A DNA stretch of 25,976 nt from a virus. The DNA lies in IMG/VR virus record IMGVR_UViG_3300025626_000117, positions 1 through 25,976 of that record; one strand, given 5' to 3'. The position numbers and the translations under genes were made by a program. The notes under the pieces are model-generated. The model was given only the letters and a program-made list of their open reading frames with translations. It was not told the DNA's origin and made no database searches. This document shows, piece after piece, positions 13,765-24,552 of the stretch; within the stretch, counting starts at the first letter, position 1; every line of letters begins with the position of its first letter.

Positions 13765-14177
13765 GATTCATATACTCTTCTGAATGTTGCTGATAAATTA
13801 TTGTGCCCGCTGTTATTATAGCTTTGACTAAATGTGTCGCATACTACTTTGATAGTTTTTTCATTATCGATACTACTGTCTAATACGCCGGTGACCTCTT
13901 CTGTAGTAGCAAAATCTGGTACGGTAAAGTTAAAGGAACTCACCCCATTTAAGCTGTTCAAAAATCCTGCGATATTATCAATATCCTGTTTCGGACGATT
14001 TTTGAAAGAAACATTATAAGTTTCTTCTGTATTATTTATGCCTTTTGTGCTTCTCTGCTCATATCCATCACCAAACTTTATACTACGAGTTTTTTGCTTA
14101 GCGCTACGAGTCATTCCTCTGTCAGGAAGTACACTTAAACTCCCATAGGCAGATGTTGTACTAAACCCTATTGCCAT
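13761..14177 (-). CDS. M: Minor tail protein, lambda gpM-like, 138 aa
   Basis: ATG at 14177 overlaps the tape measure stop as TAATG, with GGAG 7 nt upstream inside the end of that gene. The motif IKFGDGYEQRSTKGIN near residues 33-48, followed by ETYNVSF and a later SFNFTVPD, is characteristic of the gpM minor tail protein family (about 110-140 aa). The C-terminus ends in LSATFRRVYES, as expected for the family. In lambda, M forms part of the tail hub that links the tape measure to the L protein. Order here (tape measure, M, L, K, I, J) is exactly that of lambda. Confidence 0.92.
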   Translation of the reverse strand: MAIGFSTTSAYGSLSVLPDRGMTRSAKQKTRSIKFGDGYEQRSTKGINNTEETYNVSFKNRPKQDIDNIAGFLNSLNGVSSFNFTVPDFATTEEVTGVLDSSIDNEKTIKVVCDTFSQSYNNSGHNNLSATFRRVYES

Positions 14178-17100
14178 TATGCTGCTCCATAAGGACTAAG
14201 CATGCCGCCCGGTCTCTTTTGCTTTTGAAGTTCTTCTTGTACTACAGAAGCGAGCAACTTACCTATATTCGCTCCTTGTTGTCCATCACTATTGCTGCTT
14301 TGTTCTGCGCTTCCATCACCAGACATATTTACATTAATAGATACATTATTTGTACCGCCTCCGCCGTTTTTCATCTCAACAGGAATCTTACCGCCACTCG
14401 GAAGAGGTACTACAGCTTCTGTTCCATGAAGAATTGCAGGGTAACCTGCGTTTCTACCCCGTGCGATACCGCCTGTAGCATAGCCCTTCATAATACCGCC
14501 GTGTCGCGATCCAGGAAAAAGTCCTGAGCCGGAAGTTTTAAATATCTCGAGGTCAGCTACATTGCCGCCACCGCCTGCACCGGCACCGGCACCGGCACCT
14601 CCTGGCATCATCCCAGAGAGCATTCTAAACACAAGCATTTGTGTGATCATTTTTGCTATCATACCTAATACGCTCATTGCCATATTTTTAAAAGCATCTT
14701 TCATAGTCATAGTACCAGTAATTATTCCTTCTATACCCGCGGACAGACTATCTACAAAAGCATTTTGTACTCCCGCAACGCCTTTTGTTACAATTTTTAC
14801 TTGTTCTTGTGCCCGTATTGTTTCATACATTGACTCTCTTTCCGCAGCACTAAAACTAGCGCCTTTGTCTTCGTACTCGTTCATTTGTCTACGAAATTCT
14901 GCTAATACCGGATTAATTGTTAACTCTTCTCTTTTCTTTTGAAGACTTCGTAGCTCTGCTTCTTCGGTACGTAAAGCTATACCTTCCATCTCAAGATTGA
15001 GTTGCTTTTTTACACCTAACATAGCAAGTTCATTTGATAAGGCTTGTATTCTGGCATTTGCGGCTTGTATCTTTGTAGCATCTTTTGTCGCATCTAAATC
15101 CGCAAGAGCTGCAAGTGCATTTGTGTGCTCTAGTTCTTTAGATCTTACTTGCTCGTCAAAACTTTCCATTTCATGAGCTCGCTTCAGTGCTCCCATATCA
15201 GCTGAACTAAGACCTGCTCCATCGACTCCCTGTACTAATGCGAGACGTTTGCGTCCGGCGGCTGCTTGCCGGTTTTCCATCTCCAGCATAGCATTAGCTT
15301 CACCTATCTGTCGTTTCTGTATATCTAGCTGTCTTTCTTTTTCTGTAGTGATTGCTTGCTGAGATATTTCTAAAGCTTCTGCTATTGTTACTTCCTGCTG
15401 AGCTAGTTCTACTGCCTTCTCTGCATTTTTATATTGCTTGGAGCTCTTCTCAACACCCTGTGTGTCTAATAATTCTTTAGCTGTGGTAGCACTTACTTGT
15501 TTTTGTAATGCCTTGCTAACAGCATTCGCCGCTGTTAAATTTGATGCCTGTAGTCTGGCTTTTTTAGCTTCAAAACTCTGACTTACTTGATCTATTTTTG
15601 CAATTTTTTCTTTATTATCTAAGATAGAGTCTTCTATTAGTAGTTGCTTTTCTACAGAAACAGCTACTATAGCTCTAAGTTTTCCCGCATCTTCAACGGC
15701 TTTGTTTGCTCTATCTTGAGAACCTTCTAGCGCCTTTCTAGCGGCTTGCGCGGCTGCAAGATCTTCTTTATCACTAGCGGTTACAAGAGGAGTTGTCGTT
15801 GTTACTGTTCTATAATTCTTATTTCTGTTGCTTATTGGTATTTGCTGTGTTGTTGTCGTACTGCCGGTGCCCGTTGAGTATTTTTTTATGTCTGCATCAA
15901 GAGCTGCCATTTGATCCTTTATCACTTGACTCTCAGGAATTCCGGCTGCTACTTGTACTTTTAATTCATAGTCTTTATTTAAAGCATCTTGTAAAGACTG
16001 CAGAGGTGCTTGGGGTATACTATTAAATAAAGCGTTTAATTCGTTGGTAACATTCTTACTAGATTGGGCCAACTGTTCAGCGGCAGCGCCTGTTTGAATC
16101 ATAGCATTTGCGCGATTAAGCATTGCTTTTTTTGCTTTATCACTAGCTACTGTAAGCTTTCCTTCACTATCAAGCAGTGCTTTAAAAGCAGGATCTGCTA
16201 CTATTAATGAGTCTACAGTTGTTTTAATACTTGCACTTAGCTCGTCAAATCCTTCAGTACCTTTTAGTCCATCAAGTTTTTCTATATCTTGTAAAACACC
16301 AAAAACGTTCGCTTGTTCTATAGCGTTTCCTTGCTGGATTAAAAGCTCTGTGCCTGTTAAAAGACCTGGATTGTTTTTATTCAGGTCGTGAATTTTGGAC
16401 ATATGCTCATTTAATTCAGAGTATTTGCTATTCAGATTCTCTACTTCGTCTTGTGCTTTTTTTGCTTCTTTTGACATAGGAAAAAATGCATCATAAGCGG
16501 CTTTACCTAACTCATAAACCAGCAGTATCATCCCTAACCAGCCCGCCCCTTTCATGGCTGTATTCATACCTTTTGCCATTTTATTTGTAGCTCGCACCAT
16601 CATTAAACTAGCTTTTTTCCATGCTAAAGTAGCAGAAGATGCAGCAACTTTTGCCCCATTTGATACTGTTTTAAAACTAAAAAGGGCTCTTGTTTCGAAT
16701 TTTTTAACCGCCTGAGCACGAAGTTCGTATGAAGCTCTTAAGTCTGCTAATTGTTGTTTGTTATACTTCTTTAGAATACCTGTTCGCTTTGCACCACTTT
16801 TATCTACTTGCGCTTCCGCATTTTTAAGAATTCTATTAGCATTTGCTGCACCCTTTTTACTATTGGATGCTCCTGACAAAAAGTCCATGCCGGTATCTTT
16901 ACCCGTTCCAGGTTTACCTAAAGCTACACCTCCTTTTTTGGCGGCTTTATCCGCTGCATCAAAGGCTCCTTGTCGTGTTTTTAAATCATTTACTAAAGCC
17001 GAGGTGCTGTCTTTAAAAGCGGCAGTACTCTTGAGTGCTGATTGTTGGGCTATATCTGCACTTTCTTGCATTCTTTCTGCCATTTGATCAAAAGCCGGAA

Positions 17101-18010
17101 GCATAGCTTTTGTGATAGGAACGGCTACTACGGCAAAAGCTGCTGCTAAAGCATAAGTATTTTCACTTAGAAAATTAAGTATAGGAATTATTACGGGCAT
17201 AATACCCTTTTTAATAGTATTTATTAGATCGTCAAAACTCTTAGCAAATCTCTCTACAGCAAAAGCATCTCGGTCCATAGTCTTAGCAATGGTACCAAAC
17301 TTGCTTTCTGCCTCTTCAAGCACAAAGTTTGCAACAGCTTGACTTCTTTCAAAAGCGTTCAAGTCATCTGCGGTCTTTCCTATACTTGCAGCATATTGTT
17401 CTGTGGCAGGTTTAAGTCTTAGTATGATACCCAATTCGTCGAGAAGCTCTGGTTCTGCTTTTGTTACACCTTTAACTAAACGGTTGAAAGAGTCTGATAA
17501 ATCCCTTCCTAATACCAAAGAAGCATTCTTAGCTGCTGTACCTAAACCTGTTATCTGTGAAGCACTTAAACCCGCGGCACTTGCTATGGCGGTAGCCTGT
17601 GCTGCTTCTTTATATTTTAATTGTCCTTCTGTAGCGTCTTGTAACGCGAGACTTATTCCTCTAAAAGAGGTACCGGTTACTGCCCCGTACTGTTCTTGTG
17701 CGGCAATAAGATTACTTAGGTTTGCAGCTTCTCTCAGAAATCCGAAAGCGGCTGTGACTGCAAAGATTTGAGCAGCAAGTACTGCGTAAGCTTGTACTAA
17801 GCCTCCGGATGCGGAAGCTAGATTTGCAAAGTTTTTACTACCAGAAGACGCGGTTTGAGCTAATCCTCTTTGGGCTTTATTTGCACCACCAGCACTTTCG
17901 CTAACGCCCTTTAATTGATCTTTTAGCACTTTGGCATCTACAGCAATACGCTTAGTTGTACCTTTATCGTCAACTATTACGTCAATATATACTTTTCTTT
18001 TACCCGCCAT
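14177..18010 (-). CDS. Tail tape measure protein, 1277 aa
   Basis: Sets tail length and is ejected with the DNA. Its size is in the normal range for a siphovirus and would predict a tail of roughly 190 nm using the usual 1.5 angstrom per residue rule. Features: long Ala-rich helical and coiled-coil stretches (about residues 530-1100); hydrophobic segments near residues 69-92, 285-303, 490-515 and 1125-1150, which may insert into the host membrane; a Gly/Ala simple tract (GAGAGAGGGG) near residue 1145; and the typical ending GGIMKGYATGGIARG...GYPAILHGTEAVVPLP. Start at 18010 is 9 nt after the chaperone stop with only a weak ribosome binding site. No lysozyme or peptidase domain is evident. Confidence 0.95.
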   Translation of the reverse strand: MAGKRKVYIDVIVDDKGTTKRIAVDAKVLKDQLKGVSESAGGANKAQRGLAQTASSGSKNFANLASASGGLVQAYAVLAAQIFAVTAAFGFLREAANLSNLIAAQEQYGAVTGTSFRGISLALQDATEGQLKYKEAAQATAIASAAGLSASQITGLGTAAKNASLVLGRDLSDSFNRLVKGVTKAEPELLDELGIILRLKPATEQYAASIGKTADDLNAFERSQAVANFVLEEAESKFGTIAKTMDRDAFAVERFAKSFDDLINTIKKGIMPVIIPILNFLSENTYALAAAFAVVAVPITKAMLPAFDQMAERMQESADIAQQSALKSTAAFKDSTSALVNDLKTRQGAFDAADKAAKKGGVALGKPGTGKDTGMDFLSGASNSKKGAANANRILKNAEAQVDKSGAKRTGILKKYNKQQLADLRASYELRAQAVKKFETRALFSFKTVSNGAKVAASSATLAWKKASLMMVRATNKMAKGMNTAMKGAGWLGMILLVYELGKAAYDAFFPMSKEAKKAQDEVENLNSKYSELNEHMSKIHDLNKNNPGLLTGTELLIQQGNAIEQANVFGVLQDIEKLDGLKGTEGFDELSASIKTTVDSLIVADPAFKALLDSEGKLTVASDKAKKAMLNRANAMIQTGAAAEQLAQSSKNVTNELNALFNSIPQAPLQSLQDALNKDYELKVQVAAGIPESQVIKDQMAALDADIKKYSTGTGSTTTTQQIPISNRNKNYRTVTTTTPLVTASDKEDLAAAQAARKALEGSQDRANKAVEDAGKLRAIVAVSVEKQLLIEDSILDNKEKIAKIDQVSQSFEAKKARLQASNLTAANAVSKALQKQVSATTAKELLDTQGVEKSSKQYKNAEKAVELAQQEVTIAEALEISQQAITTEKERQLDIQKRQIGEANAMLEMENRQAAAGRKRLALVQGVDGAGLSSADMGALKRAHEMESFDEQVRSKELEHTNALAALADLDATKDATKIQAANARIQALSNELAMLGVKKQLNLEMEGIALRTEEAELRSLQKKREELTINPVLAEFRRQMNEYEDKGASFSAAERESMYETIRAQEQVKIVTKGVAGVQNAFVDSLSAGIEGIITGTMTMKDAFKNMAMSVLGMIAKMITQMLVFRMLSGMMPGGAGAGAGAGGGGNVADLEIFKTSGSGLFPGSRHGGIMKGYATGGIARGRNAGYPAILHGTEAVVPLPSGGKIPVEMKNGGGGTNNVSINVNMSGDGSAEQSSNSDGQQGANIGKLLASVVQEELQKQKRPGGMLSPYGAA
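14577..14599 (-). repeat. Hexamer tandem repeat (GCACCG x almost 4) in tape measure gene
   Basis: GCACCG is repeated three full times plus five bases of a fourth, encoding alternating Gly-Ala on the minus strand. In-frame changes of repeat number by slippage would only alter the flexible Gly/Ala linker before the C-terminal domain. Confidence 0.8.
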
Positions 18011-18019
18011 ATTATAGCT

Positions 18020-18457
18020 CTATCGCTTGGCTTTTGCCGCGCGCTCTGAAGCTTTACGTTTTTTGTTCGCTTCTTCTGCTTTTTCCCTTACTAATATACT
18101 TTCATATATTTTTGCAAAGTATGTAACGTATTGTATATCTTCTATTTCATATATCTTAAAGAGAAATTCTGCAGATGACCAGTCTTTTCCCAGATACATG
18201 CCTGACATACCCTCCCACCTGTCAGGTAAAAGGTCGAATATAAAAAATGCCACTTGCACTTCAGGTGGAAATACTGAAGCATCTAGTGGCATTTTGTCGG
18301 GATCTGGCTCTTGTTCGAGTTGCTCACACAATAGCAAATATGTTTCTATAGAAACATCGGAAGTACTCTCTTTTACTGATCGTTCAAGTAACTTTATTAT
18401 CTCAGTTACTTGTTCCCAGTAAAATTTTCCAAATCGCCTACTGTTTCTGTTACCCAT
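18020..18457 (-). CDS. Tail assembly chaperone, -1 frame extension (lambda T-like), made as a 269-aa fusion
   Basis: This frame overlaps the upstream chaperone gene by 52 nt and lies in the -1 frame relative to it. Its first ATG (18457) has no ribosome binding site, so it is probably reached only by ribosomes slipping at 18421-18427. The fusion would join the first 136 residues of the upstream protein (ending VGDLENF) to YWEQVTEIIKLL and the following 131 residues, giving about 269 aa. The C-terminus is Lys/Arg/Glu/Ala-rich helix (ESILVREKAEEANKKRKASE). In lambda the gpGT fusion binds the tape measure protein and recruits the tube protein through its T domain; the same role is inferred here from position just before the tape measure gene. 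Confidence 0.85.
   Translation of the reverse strand: MGNRNSRRFGKFYWEQVTEIIKLLERSVKESTSDVSIETYLLLCEQLEQEPDPDKMPLDASVFPPEVQVAFFIFDLLPDRWEGMSGMYLGKDWSSAEFLFKIYEIEDIQYVTYFAKIYESILVREKAEEANKKRKASERAAKAKR
18385..18427 (-). promoter_or_regulatory. Programmed -1 ribosomal frameshift signal
   Basis: In the transcript the heptamer A AAU UUU (18427-18421) is in the correct register (codons GAA AAT TTT) to be a canonical X XXY YYZ slippery site. An 8-nt spacer follows, then a perfect 8-bp inverted repeat CAAGTAAC (18412-18405) and GTTACTTG (18392-18385) with a 12-nt loop. The zero-frame stop codon TAA (18408-18406) is within the first arm. Frames were checked: upstream codons start at coordinates divisible by 3, downstream at remainder 1, which is a -1 shift. 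Confidence 0.85.
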
Positions 18458-18828
18458 GTATCAAACATGTTGGCATTCTTCATCAGTAGTTCTGCATTTT
18501 CTTGTGTGTAAGGCAGCTCATCATCAGGTTCAAGGCTAGAAACATCCACTAATAGAAGCTCTTCTAAGTATCGATATTTTAGACCCTTCCACCCTTTAAT
18601 TACTGCTTTAGTGTATTCTGTCAAAAACTTATCATCATTCAGCTCTTCTTCAGGCTGATGTGTTTTTTTGTTAAATTTTGTGGTTACGCATCTTTTTCTT
18701 AATTTAACTAATTCTTCCCGAGCTAGGTAGCATAAATCTACATCCATGCCAATATATCCAGGGAAATCAACCGTAACAGTTTTACTAGCAGTCATTAAAC
18801 TGGCTAGGGAAATAGGGGTATCGCTCAT
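18406..18828 (-). CDS. Tail assembly chaperone (lambda G-like), 140 aa
   Basis: First gene after the promoter at 18874-18902; ATG at 18828 with AAAGGAC as ribosome binding site. Residues about 55-70 and 75-95 are charged and helical (EEELNDDKFLTEYTKAVIKG, then GLKYRYLEELL). The length of 140 equals that of lambda gpG. It sits between the tube protein and the tape measure protein and ends inside a frameshift overlap, which is the standard arrangement for tail assembly chaperones; such proteins vary too much in sequence to be recognised by motifs alone. It likely coats the tape measure protein during assembly and is absent from the finished virion. Confidence 0.85.
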   Translation of the reverse strand: MSDTPISLASLMTASKTVTVDFPGYIGMDVDLCYLAREELVKLRKRCVTTKFNKKTHQPEEELNDDKFLTEYTKAVIKGWKGLKYRYLEELLLVDVSSLEPDDELPYTQENAELLMKNANMFDTWVTETVGDLENFTGNK

Positions 18829-18873
18829 TTATGTGTCCTTTTAAAAATAGAAATAGTAAGTTTTATATCGTAT

Positions 18874-18902
18874 AGTATATAGGAGAGGAGGAGGTTTGTC
18901 AA
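18874..18902 (-). promoter_or_regulatory. Near-consensus sigma70 promoter for the tail assembly operon
   Basis: TTGACA (18902-18897) and TATACT (18879-18874) with exactly 17 nt between them, preceded by the A-tract element AAAAAATAATTC (18914-18903). The predicted start near 18867 gives a leader of about 40 nt before the chaperone gene. It lies directly behind the terminator at 18926-18950, so the tail assembly genes form a new transcription unit. The upstream element plus -35 box differs by one base over 17 nt from the promoter at 3275-3303. Confidence 0.88.
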
Positions 18903-18922: not shown

Positions 18923-18950
18923 AATAAAAAAGGGGCCGAAGCCCCTTTTC
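18923..18950 (-). terminator. Intrinsic terminator (GGGGC-UUCG-GCCCC, then U-tract)
   Basis: On the minus strand AAAAGGGGC, a TTCG loop, GCCCC and TTTTTTATTT follow the tail tube gene stop (18955) within 6 nt. The stem is 9 bp if the A/T arms are included (18949-18941 with 18936-18928). The UUCG tetraloop and six U's make a strong rho-independent terminator. The A/T arms mean it could also work on the opposite strand, but no gene there needs it. Confidence 0.92.
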
Positions 18951-18954
18951 TAAG

Positions 18955-20082
18955 TTATGCCGCGCCTACGTACTTAATAGTCGCTTCGTTCGTGCTAGCA
19001 ATAGTTGAGGGTAATCCATGGAAAGAAGTCTCCAAGGAAATAACGTCCTCAATACCGTGAGAAGGAATCTCAAAGTGGGCGGTGCCCATAGCAAATTCCA
19101 TACGAGGTGTTGCAGAAGCTCCACCAATCTTGAAAGCAGTACTAAAAGAGTTAGTAATCAGTGATCGTGCCCCTGCAGCTGTCATATCGTTAAAGAAGTC
19201 TGTAGACGTTCCAGTATTAGTATTGGAATCTAGACCAAGATAACACGAGAAGTTTCCTGAGATTGATCTTGCGCCTGTAACATGACCTACTGGAGTATTT
19301 ACAGCTCCTAATGTTTCTGGAGTAATATAAGTAATATTATTAGAAATAGTAATTGCACCGCCTGTTAGAGTCAAAGTGTATACACCTGACCCTGAACCGG
19401 GAAAATTACTAGTGTCATTAGCTGTAATTGTGAGCTGAGTTAATCGATTACGAATAAAGTTATCCGTTGCATCTACATCTTCATATACAGTTTTAGTAGG
19501 TTTACTATCTGAAGTAAGTGTAGAACCAAAACCAGACCAGCTAATTGTAGCTAGCCCATCAATATCAAAATCAATAGAAGCTTCGTTTACTACTGCACTG
19601 GCAATTTTATAAACCTGTGGATTATCTCCTGCATCATCAAGAGAGAAGAAAATATCCGCTGTACCTAAAGTTGTTGTATTAGAATTAGCAAAGCTAATAT
19701 CTAAGTCTGTAGCATCACGTGTGAAGCCGGTAAAATCATTAGAAGTATAAGTGGCATCACCTACCATTAGCGCCCACAGTACTTCTTCTACTGCGTGATG
19801 AGCTACAGCATCATTTGCTGCGCCCGAGCCTGTTCCCGCCGATTTGAACGGACGAACATATGTTGAGAAGGACCACTCGACAGGAGCAAGTGAGTCGTTG
19901 AACATTCTTCGTCCACGCTTACTGACTCCAGAGGAATCTTCCATCTCTGCCAGAGTTACCTCTGTTGAGTTTGTTGCTTGTGAAAAGCTAAATCCATCAA
20001 GTACGGGAACTTCCCAAATTGCTGCTCCAATCTTGATGTACACTTTCGTGTCGCGACTAAAATATAAAGTATCGACTGCCAT
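18955..20082 (-). CDS. Major tail tube protein, 375 aa
   Basis: ATG at 20082 with AGGAG 6 nt upstream. The N-terminal motif VYIKIGAAIWEVPVLDGFSF and the following SQATNSTEVTLAEMED are typical of phage tail tube proteins, which form stacked hexameric rings. A later EWSFSTYVRPF (about residues 68-78) matches the beta-sheet core. At 375 aa it is longer than lambda gpV (246 aa); the extra residues (about 215-290, ending near GHVTGARSISGNFSCYLGLD) may be an added surface domain as in gpV's Ig-like C-terminus. It is the last gene before a strong terminator, as fits a protein needed in high copy number. Confidence 0.88.
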   Translation of the reverse strand: MAVDTLYFSRDTKVYIKIGAAIWEVPVLDGFSFSQATNSTEVTLAEMEDSSGVSKRGRRMFNDSLAPVEWSFSTYVRPFKSAGTGSGAANDAVAHHAVEEVLWALMVGDATYTSNDFTGFTRDATDLDISFANSNTTTLGTADIFFSLDDAGDNPQVYKIASAVVNEASIDFDIDGLATISWSGFGSTLTSDSKPTKTVYEDVDATDNFIRNRLTQLTITANDTSNFPGSGSGVYTLTLTGGAITISNNITYITPETLGAVNTPVGHVTGARSISGNFSCYLGLDSNTNTGTSTDFFNDMTAAGARSLITNSFSTAFKIGGASATPRMEFAMGTAHFEIPSHGIEDVISLETSFHGLPSTIASTNEATIKYVGAA

Positions 20083-22539: not shown

Positions 22540-24552
22540 TTAAGCTGCTGAATCGATCTTGATACAAGGCTGATCTGAGCCTGCACCGGCGACGATTTCG
22601 TTGAAGCCCAAAGATTGGCTGGCAACGATTACGCGACGCTGATTCAATACTTCGTAATCCTGCTCGACGGTTACACCGCGGAGTCGTGGAGTTACGTAGT
22701 TTCGTGCGTATACTGCAAAGGCTACTGGTACACCAGCGCCTTCTGCGGCGAACTCTTCAGAAACGATTACTGGAGAGCCGAAAACAGCCCCAACAGTACC
22801 CGTTACTTTGATAGCCAGTTCAGTACCGACTTCGTCTAAGCTTTGGAAAGCTGAATCACTTAACAAATCATAGTACATTTTTTGACTGACGATGAAAGTA
22901 ACATCGGAAGGATTCAAACCATACTTACCCATTTCCTTACGAGCATTCAACAAGTCAGCACCAGTCATGGTGTTGAAAGAAGTACCCGCAGCTCCGTCAC
23001 CAGAGATATCGTGAGTAATAGCGGAAGCTGCACCGTGTCCGTCAAGACCGGAAATAGTACCGTTACCTAAAAGGAAGGCCGATTCTACAGCGCGCCCGTG
23101 TGCACGTGCTACACCTTCAACCAACATAGGCATCAAGTTAATAAGAGTTTGCTCATCAACTTCGTTGTCCATAAAGGTGGTTGAGATCAAACGATAAGCA
23201 TTCAAGATAACTTGCTTAGGCTGATACGTAGAGTTGCTTGCGCCGCGGTTCTCTAAAGTACCTGCGCGCTCAGTTGCACCTGCGCCGCTTGCCCATGATG
23301 CTGGTTCTACGTCTACCTGGATAGGAAGAACTGTAGACTTACCATTAACAGGGATTTCGCGGAACAAACGAGCTACTTTCAACTCATTCATGATTTCTTT
23401 CTCGATTAAACGAGAAACTTCTTGGTCAATATCGCCAGCATTAGTTGCATAGTCGATACCGGCTTTCTGTTGAAGATCTTGTGCAAAAGAAGTATTCCAA
23501 CCCTTTTGAGTCATAACACCCAACATGTGAGCCTTCAAGAAATCTTGGCCCCACTTACTGACGTCAGATTTTTCAGCACGATCAGCGAATACTCGCTTAG
23601 ACTCACGCATCTTCTGGATTTCTTCAGATTTCTCTTCGAGATCTTTCTTATACTGAGCAAGGACTTCACCCATATCTGCGTCTTTAGCAGAAAGTTTTTC
23701 TTGCATATCGCTAAGAAGCTTTTCGGCCCCTGACTCTACGCCAGTTCTAATTGCTGATTTAACTTCTTCAGCTTGAAGATTTTTAGCTTCTGCGTCTGCA
23801 GCGGCTTTTTCTTCGGCTTCTTGTACAGCTTTAACTTCAGCTGCTTTTTGCTCGGCTTGCTTCATTGCAATCTTTGCAGCAGTTTCCTCTGCTACCTTCT
23901 TAGCAAAAGCTTCCAAGTCGACTTCGGGAGTATTAATTCCTTCCGACATATTAGTCTCCTTTTGGGCATTAGCCCCATCCGGTGCGTCACTAGCTAGTAA
24001 TGATTTTTCATCCTTAGCCAGAGACGGCTCGGCTAGTTCGACACTATTTATGAAAGTTTTTTTGAATTCTTCGTACTCAGCTAGTGAGTCAAAAGACTTC
24101 GCCAGAGAGAAAGTGGCTGCTTGATTGCAAGGAACGGATACAACCGATACTTCAAACAATTCAGCGTCCTTAATCTTTAGTCCGTCAGTTTCCGTAATAT
24201 AATCAGCATCCTTGACTCGGAAACCAACAGAAAAAGCCCCAAGGATACCTTCTTTAACTAGTTCACAAACATTAGCAGGTGCAGACTTGCTAATCTTTGC
24301 TTCTAACTCCAGGCCGTTCTCTGTTATTTTAAGGCCTGTAGCTCGACCGATTGGTCGATCATAGTCGTGATTGAAAAGAATGATAGGATTCTTCTCAAAA
24401 TTCTTTAGTCCACCTTTTGCCCATGCTTCACTGGAGATAGAATCTCCTGCACGATCAAAATCAGCGGTACTTGCCATACCGCGAATCATTACTGATCCGT
24501 CATCTATAGAGTGTGTCTTAAAAGTAGACGTTAAATTAAAAATTTTATCCAT
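22540..24552 (-). CDS. Prohead protease - scaffold - major capsid protein fusion, 670 aa
   Basis: One open frame carries two normally separate genes. Residues 1-160 are the HK97-type (U35) prohead protease: His62 (LFNHDYDRPIGRA), Ser108 (GILGAFSVGF) and a Glu at 131 or 134 (DAELFEVSVVSVP) are the likely catalytic residues. Residues about 210-325 are Ala/Glu/Lys-rich coiled coil, corresponding to the delta scaffolding domain. From about 330 the HK97-fold capsid protein begins (DIDQEVSRLIEKEIMNELKV; RLFREIPVNGKSTVLPIQ), ending CIKIDSAA. A strong ribosome binding site and ATG inside the frame (23949) could make the scaffold-capsid part alone. Such fusions are known in some other phages. It follows the previous gene by 1 nt. 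Confidence 0.93.
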   Translation of the reverse strand: MDKIFNLTSTFKTHSIDDGSVMIRGMASTADFDRAGDSISSEAWAKGGLKNFEKNPIILFNHDYDRPIGRATGLKITENGLELEAKISKSAPANVCELVKEGILGAFSVGFRVKDADYITETDGLKIKDAELFEVSVVSVPCNQAATFSLAKSFDSLAEYEEFKKTFINSVELAEPSLAKDEKSLLASDAPDGANAQKETNMSEGINTPEVDLEAFAKKVAEETAAKIAMKQAEQKAAEVKAVQEAEEKAAADAEAKNLQAEEVKSAIRTGVESGAEKLLSDMQEKLSAKDADMGEVLAQYKKDLEEKSEEIQKMRESKRVFADRAEKSDVSKWGQDFLKAHMLGVMTQKGWNTSFAQDLQQKAGIDYATNAGDIDQEVSRLIEKEIMNELKVARLFREIPVNGKSTVLPIQVDVEPASWASGAGATERAGTLENRGASNSTYQPKQVILNAYRLISTTFMDNEVDEQTLINLMPMLVEGVARAHGRAVESAFLLGNGTISGLDGHGAASAITHDISGDGAAGTSFNTMTGADLLNARKEMGKYGLNPSDVTFIVSQKMYYDLLSDSAFQSLDEVGTELAIKVTGTVGAVFGSPVIVSEEFAAEGAGVPVAFAVYARNYVTPRLRGVTVEQDYEVLNQRRVIVASQSLGFNEIVAGAGSDQPCIKIDSAA
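23947..23961 (-). promoter_or_regulatory. Internal ribosome binding site and start for a separate scaffold-capsid protein
   Basis: Within the fusion gene, AAGGAG (23961-23956), 6 nt and ATG (23949-23947, Met202, MSEGINTPEV) give the best Shine-Dalgarno and spacing of any internal codon I saw in that gene. Translation from here would give a 469-aa scaffold-capsid polypeptide ending at 22540. It falls exactly at the junction between the protease domain and the coiled-coil scaffold. Confidence 0.75.

Follow-up and report, generated by a model that had tools for sequence, protein, structure and literature searches.

Predicted -1 frameshifting at the tail assembly chaperone genes of an uncultivated phage lineage, and a probable switch of shift direction relative to T5-like phages

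The two overlapping tail assembly chaperone genes of the virus studied here are very likely expressed through programmed -1 ribosomal frameshifting, as judged from a slip site and a downstream hairpin that are conserved among its relatives. The window, by which we mean the whole 25,976-base virus record, has its genes on the minus strand, arranged as is usual for a long-tailed phage, and all features described below lie on that strand. That ribosomes shift frame at the tail chaperone pair is well established, with both directions found among phages, and for a tailed phage a -1 shift there is to be expected. Most ribosomes would complete the first open reading frame (ORF1) and release a short chaperone. 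A minority would pause at the hairpin with tRNA-Asn (on AAU) and tRNA-Phe (on UUU) positioned on A AAU UUU; the two tRNAs would move back in tandem by a single base, to AAA UUU, and translation, now in the frame of ORF2, would yield a fusion of 269 aa. In this scheme the short form would serve as a coat for the tape measure protein, and the long form, made rarely, would bring in the major tail protein. That the ribosome slips, how often it does so and what each product does are inferences, the last of them drawn by analogy with lambda.

ORF1 (18406..18828, 140 aa), the product of unshifted translation and the analogue of lambda gpG, matches the tail assembly chaperone family PHROG 313 (E = 1.7e-12). 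ORF2 (18020..18457, 145 aa), the analogue of lambda T, overlaps it in the -1 frame and matches a second tail assembly chaperone family, PHROG 3914 (E = 8.5e-19). The pair is flanked by the gene for the major tail protein (18955..20082; PHROG 3575, E = 1.8e-50), the expected partner of the C-terminal part of the fusion, and by that for the tape measure protein (14177..18010; PHROG 3779, E = 1.7e-46), the expected client of the chaperone. A Pfam search of the chaperone proteins returned no match. When the ORF1 model was compared with the PDB using Foldseek, the known tail chaperones of YqbN (3KLU) and HK97 (2OB9) type ranked first and third, but neither match is significant (E = 0.34 and 1.0, respectively; TM 0.32-0.39), and the ORF2 model gave no meaningful match.

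ORF1 has a Shine-Dalgarno-like AAGGA (18836..18840; AAAAGGACACATAA-ATG), and directly upstream of the gene is a near-perfect sigma-70 promoter, TTGACA-17-TATACT (18874..18902), with an 11/12 match. Promoter scores of 11-12 out of 12 were found upstream of ORF1 in 61 of 161 relatives and within ORF1 in none of the 161. An intrinsic-terminator-like hairpin (18926-18949) follows the major tail gene and precedes this promoter. Elsewhere in the window, a 670-aa ORF (22540-24552) resembles, by eye, a fusion of a prohead protease and a major capsid protein.

The ORF1 codons GAA AAT TTT place the slippery heptamer A AAT TTT in register at 18427..18421, with Asn AAU in the P site and Phe UUU in the A site. 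The slip site, GAAAATTTTA, is rich in A and T. It is followed by an 8-nt spacer, ACTGGGAA (18420..18413), and then by the putative stimulatory hairpin (18385..18412), in which the 5' arm CAAGTAAC (18412..18405) pairs with the 3' arm GTTACTTG (18392..18385) across a loop at 18404..18393. The zero-frame stop codon of ORF1, TAA (18408..18406), lies within the 5' arm. The shift would join 136 residues of ORF1 to 133 of ORF2, with the junction LENF-YWEQV, so that ORF2 from Tyr13 onward becomes residues 137-269 of the fusion. A sequence-only reading of the window had already proposed these elements. The heptamer, in register within the chaperone overlap, proved exact to the base; the joint product predicted at about 269 aa has that length; and the ORF2 ATG (18457..18455), said to have no ribosome binding site, indeed has no Shine-Dalgarno-like sequence upstream. 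The perfect 8-bp stem with its 12-nt loop and 8-nt spacer is present as described, with the amendment that the stem grows to 9 bp and the loop shrinks to 10 nt if one extra U-A pair is counted.

In-frame heptamers of the form X XXY YYZ occur 48 times in the 8503 codon positions of the window's genes, and the chance of finding any such heptamer in the overlap is about 9%. Of these 48, just one, the A AAT TTT at 18427..18421, is followed at a distance of 5-10 nt by a perfect 8-bp stem. Conservation in relatives places the predicted slip signal far beyond chance.

Relatives were collected by scanning viral contigs and, after near-identical junctions were removed, comprised 170 distinct junctions with ORF2 in the -1 frame. 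The sequence-only reading had pointed to relatives as the place to look for the heptamer, and there it was found: A AAT TTT is present at 152 of these junctions and G GGA AAC at 10 more, which makes 162 with a canonical in-frame heptamer, while the remaining 8 carry T/G AAT TTT. Codon usage at the site is nearly invariant in the closest relatives, where Asn is encoded by AAT in 142 of 142, Phe by TTT in 142 of 142 and a preceding Glu by GAA in 134 of 135, whereas at other conserved Asn and Phe positions of the same gene the commonest codon reaches only 50-75%. The residue before AAT TTT differs among relatives (Glu, Gln, Ser, Thr or Ala), but outside the one clade with T/G its codon ends in A. 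Fixed codons, together with a changing residue whose codon keeps a constant final A, therefore indicate selection on the slippery nucleotides and not on the peptide alone.

The members with G GGA AAC form a freshwater group, in which the site lies one codon upstream, as CTG GGA AAC. The freshwater relatives observed with this heptamer are L299, L303, L305, L312, L313, L316, L318, L319 and L323, among which no hairpin is conserved. No cultured relative of the window came up in a nucleotide search, and a search among genome contigs found relatives on two MAG contigs only, with no clear host. The phage lineage is uncultivated, mostly marine and widespread. Synonymous sites in ORF1 are also strongly constrained in a second stretch, 18544-18570 (TAC YTA GAA GAG CTT CTW TTR GTR GAT), which lies some 120-140 nt before the slip site; this stretch could fold as a hairpin with a GAGC loop, for which covariation is weak and confined to one pair.

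The hairpin region of the window folds with a z-score of -6.0, and across 134 loci the mean minimum free energy was -10.5 kcal/mol at the hairpin, compared with -4.0 and -4.7 in flanking windows. We measured conservation of pairing over the 8 pairs of the stem in 78 aligned junctions, using as controls 500 column shuffles and the same alignment slid by 1-3 columns; both controls leave shared ancestry in. Stem cells were paired in 88.0% of cases, compared with 81.5% in the shuffles (equalled in 0/500) and at most 38% when slid. Two-sided changes in the stem numbered 45, compared with 15.3 in the shuffles (0/500), and the covariation score was 0.246, compared with 0.131 (0/500). At the loop-closing pair, all four Watson-Crick combinations occur (A-U, C-G, G-C and U-A). 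Shared ancestry notwithstanding, such a variety of pairs in recognisably different sequences is hard to explain without selection for the predicted stem.

Not every relative has the same structure. In a second architecture (L132, L123 and others) the 5' arm is unchanged but the 3' arm with which it pairs lies closer, leaving a 7-nt loop, and in some deep branches, namely L258 and several of the G GGA AAC members, a strong conserved hairpin is absent. An outer helix, UUUUACUG/CAGUAAAA, which in the fold of the window would bury part of the heptamer, is not kept in relatives and appears to be incidental. An Rfam scan of the region produced sub-threshold chance matches only.

The most direct alternative is that ORF2 is an ordinary second gene with its own start, either ATG 18457 or an internal Met, perhaps used through translational coupling. 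An ATG is indeed present at 18457 in the window, and an internal ATG is often the annotated start of ORF2 in public records of T5-like phages. However, 160 of the 170 relatives have no ATG, GTG or TTG in the ORF2 frame ahead of the ORF1 stop, which leaves independent initiation unable to account for the product and makes the window's ATG at 18457 incidental. In 34 of the first 90 relatives the ORF2 frame is shut by a stop immediately before the heptamer, often an abutting TGA. The conserved internal ATG, about 130 nt downstream, would drop about 40 homologous residues, and a Shine-Dalgarno sequence precedes it in 0 of 120 loci. A second start also leaves the fixed heptamer and the covarying stem unaccounted for, and we regard it as very improbable. 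Less probable still, to the point of being negligible, is transcriptional slippage at the A/T run, by which a mixed mRNA population would yield the fusion through normal translation. The site is A/T rich, but its runs are just four A and four T, and slippage-prone homopolymers are longer than runs of four; moreover, the covarying stem and the replacement of the site by G GGA AAC fit tandem slippage by ribosomes. Programmed -1 ribosomal frameshifting is the reading that agrees with the comparison across relatives, which at the sequence level shows the site, selection on it, a covarying stem and no other start for ORF2. The sequence-only reading had reached the same view and had argued that the second frame would be lost without slipping, and both points are supported by the conserved heptamers and by the missing upstream starts.

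A variant of the frameshift reading, compatible with it, concerns how the tRNAs move: the slip could be mainly that of a single tRNA-Phe on U UUU and not a tandem one. AAT TTT is fixed in close relatives, while eight loci, all in one clade (L132, L133, L149, L152, L156, L157, L164 and L165), begin the heptamer with T or G. In these loci re-pairing in the P site is poor, which counts against the tandem reading. In the members with T, the heptamer is overlapped by a -1-frame TAA, which confines the shift to exactly AAT TTT. The same eight loci carry a 9-bp hairpin with a 7-nt loop, compared with 7 bp in an A AAT TTT relative (L154); the longer hairpin may compensate for a weaker slip site, although this is one clade and should be taken as a lead only. 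On the other side, every other member with N AAT TTT has A as its first base despite the changes among Glu, Gln, Ser, Thr and Ala, and the G GGA AAC members need tandem slippage. We consider a predominantly single-tRNA slip unlikely.

The nearest named relatives are T5-like phages (Demerecviridae). These phages have a homologous ORF1 (27-40% identity) and ORF2 in the same gene position, ORF2 can be reached only through a change of frame, and the junction falls at the homologous Phe codon. The difference is in direction: in T5-like phages ORF2 is in the +1 frame and the site is UUU CGU or UUU CGA, whereas in the window ORF2 is in the -1 frame. TTT followed by CGT or CGA is present at the homologous Phe codon in all 39 readable T5-like junctions (loci L143-L145, L241-L242, L244-L251 and L273-L298); a fortieth locus, L243, was unreadable because the frame of its ORF1 match runs elsewhere, and this partial record is probably disrupted there. 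The T5-like pair is usually annotated as two separate genes. The Shivani record gives it as a two-piece join, so some annotators did assume a shift, while the Sugarland report describes a chaperone that, like T5's, has no predicted frameshift signal (PMC6256483). Our prediction from the junction sequences is that a +1 shift takes place in T5-like phages.

In a tree of 49 ORF1 proteins, one branch divides the +1 from the -1 members with 99/98 support, and the -1 side contains a single switch to G GGA AAC and a single switch to N AAT TTT. The tree is unrooted and includes the junction columns; it separates the two directions but does not order them. It seems likely that homologous chaperone pairs have switched shift direction at one Phe codon, with A AAU UUU and a hairpin on the -1 side and UUU CGN on the +1 side. 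Such a switch suggests that selection keeps the fusion product and not the direction by which it is made.

In a search of the open-access literature we found no report of a phage tail chaperone that uses A AAU UUU, and no description of the heptamer-hairpin pair in this lineage or of a switch in direction at a homologous codon. Gene callers would list ORF1 and ORF2 as two separate genes; the analysis gives an expression mechanism, and the likely true 269-aa product, for a tail gene of a widespread uncultivated lineage. Among the relatives, heptamers (A AAU UUU, U/G AAU UUU and G GGA AAC) and hairpins (with loops of 12 nt or 7 nt) also vary naturally in a way that lets the trade-off between slip site and stem be followed, and UUU CGN is a concrete +1 candidate for T5-like phages.

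Outside phages, the closest parallel bears on the T5-like relatives and not on the window. The +1 site of influenza A PA-X is UCC_UUU_CGU, where the proposed slip is that of tRNA-Phe in the P site, from UUU to UUC (PMC3498833). T5-like junctions share the UUU_CGN part of this site, and the Pectobacterium phages My1 and DU_PP_V carry UCC UUU CGU exactly, although influenza A is an unrelated virus that uses eukaryotic ribosomes. For the window itself the comparison is with lambda G/G-T, with which it shares the order of major tail gene, chaperone pair and tape measure gene, the overlapping ORFs, the -1 direction and a heptamer of the form X XXY YYZ close to where the first ORF ends. The proteins of the window, unlike lambda's, match no Pfam model, and its shift is a prediction from sequence. 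As the sequence-only reading had noted, frameshifting at this gene pair is known in tailed phages and the heptamer of the window is unlike that of lambda: G GGA AAG in lambda, and in the window A AAU UUU, followed after 8 nt by a hairpin that is conserved and covaries. Lambda's short protein forms a coat on the tape measure protein, and its long one makes the link to the major tail protein (PMC5009743).
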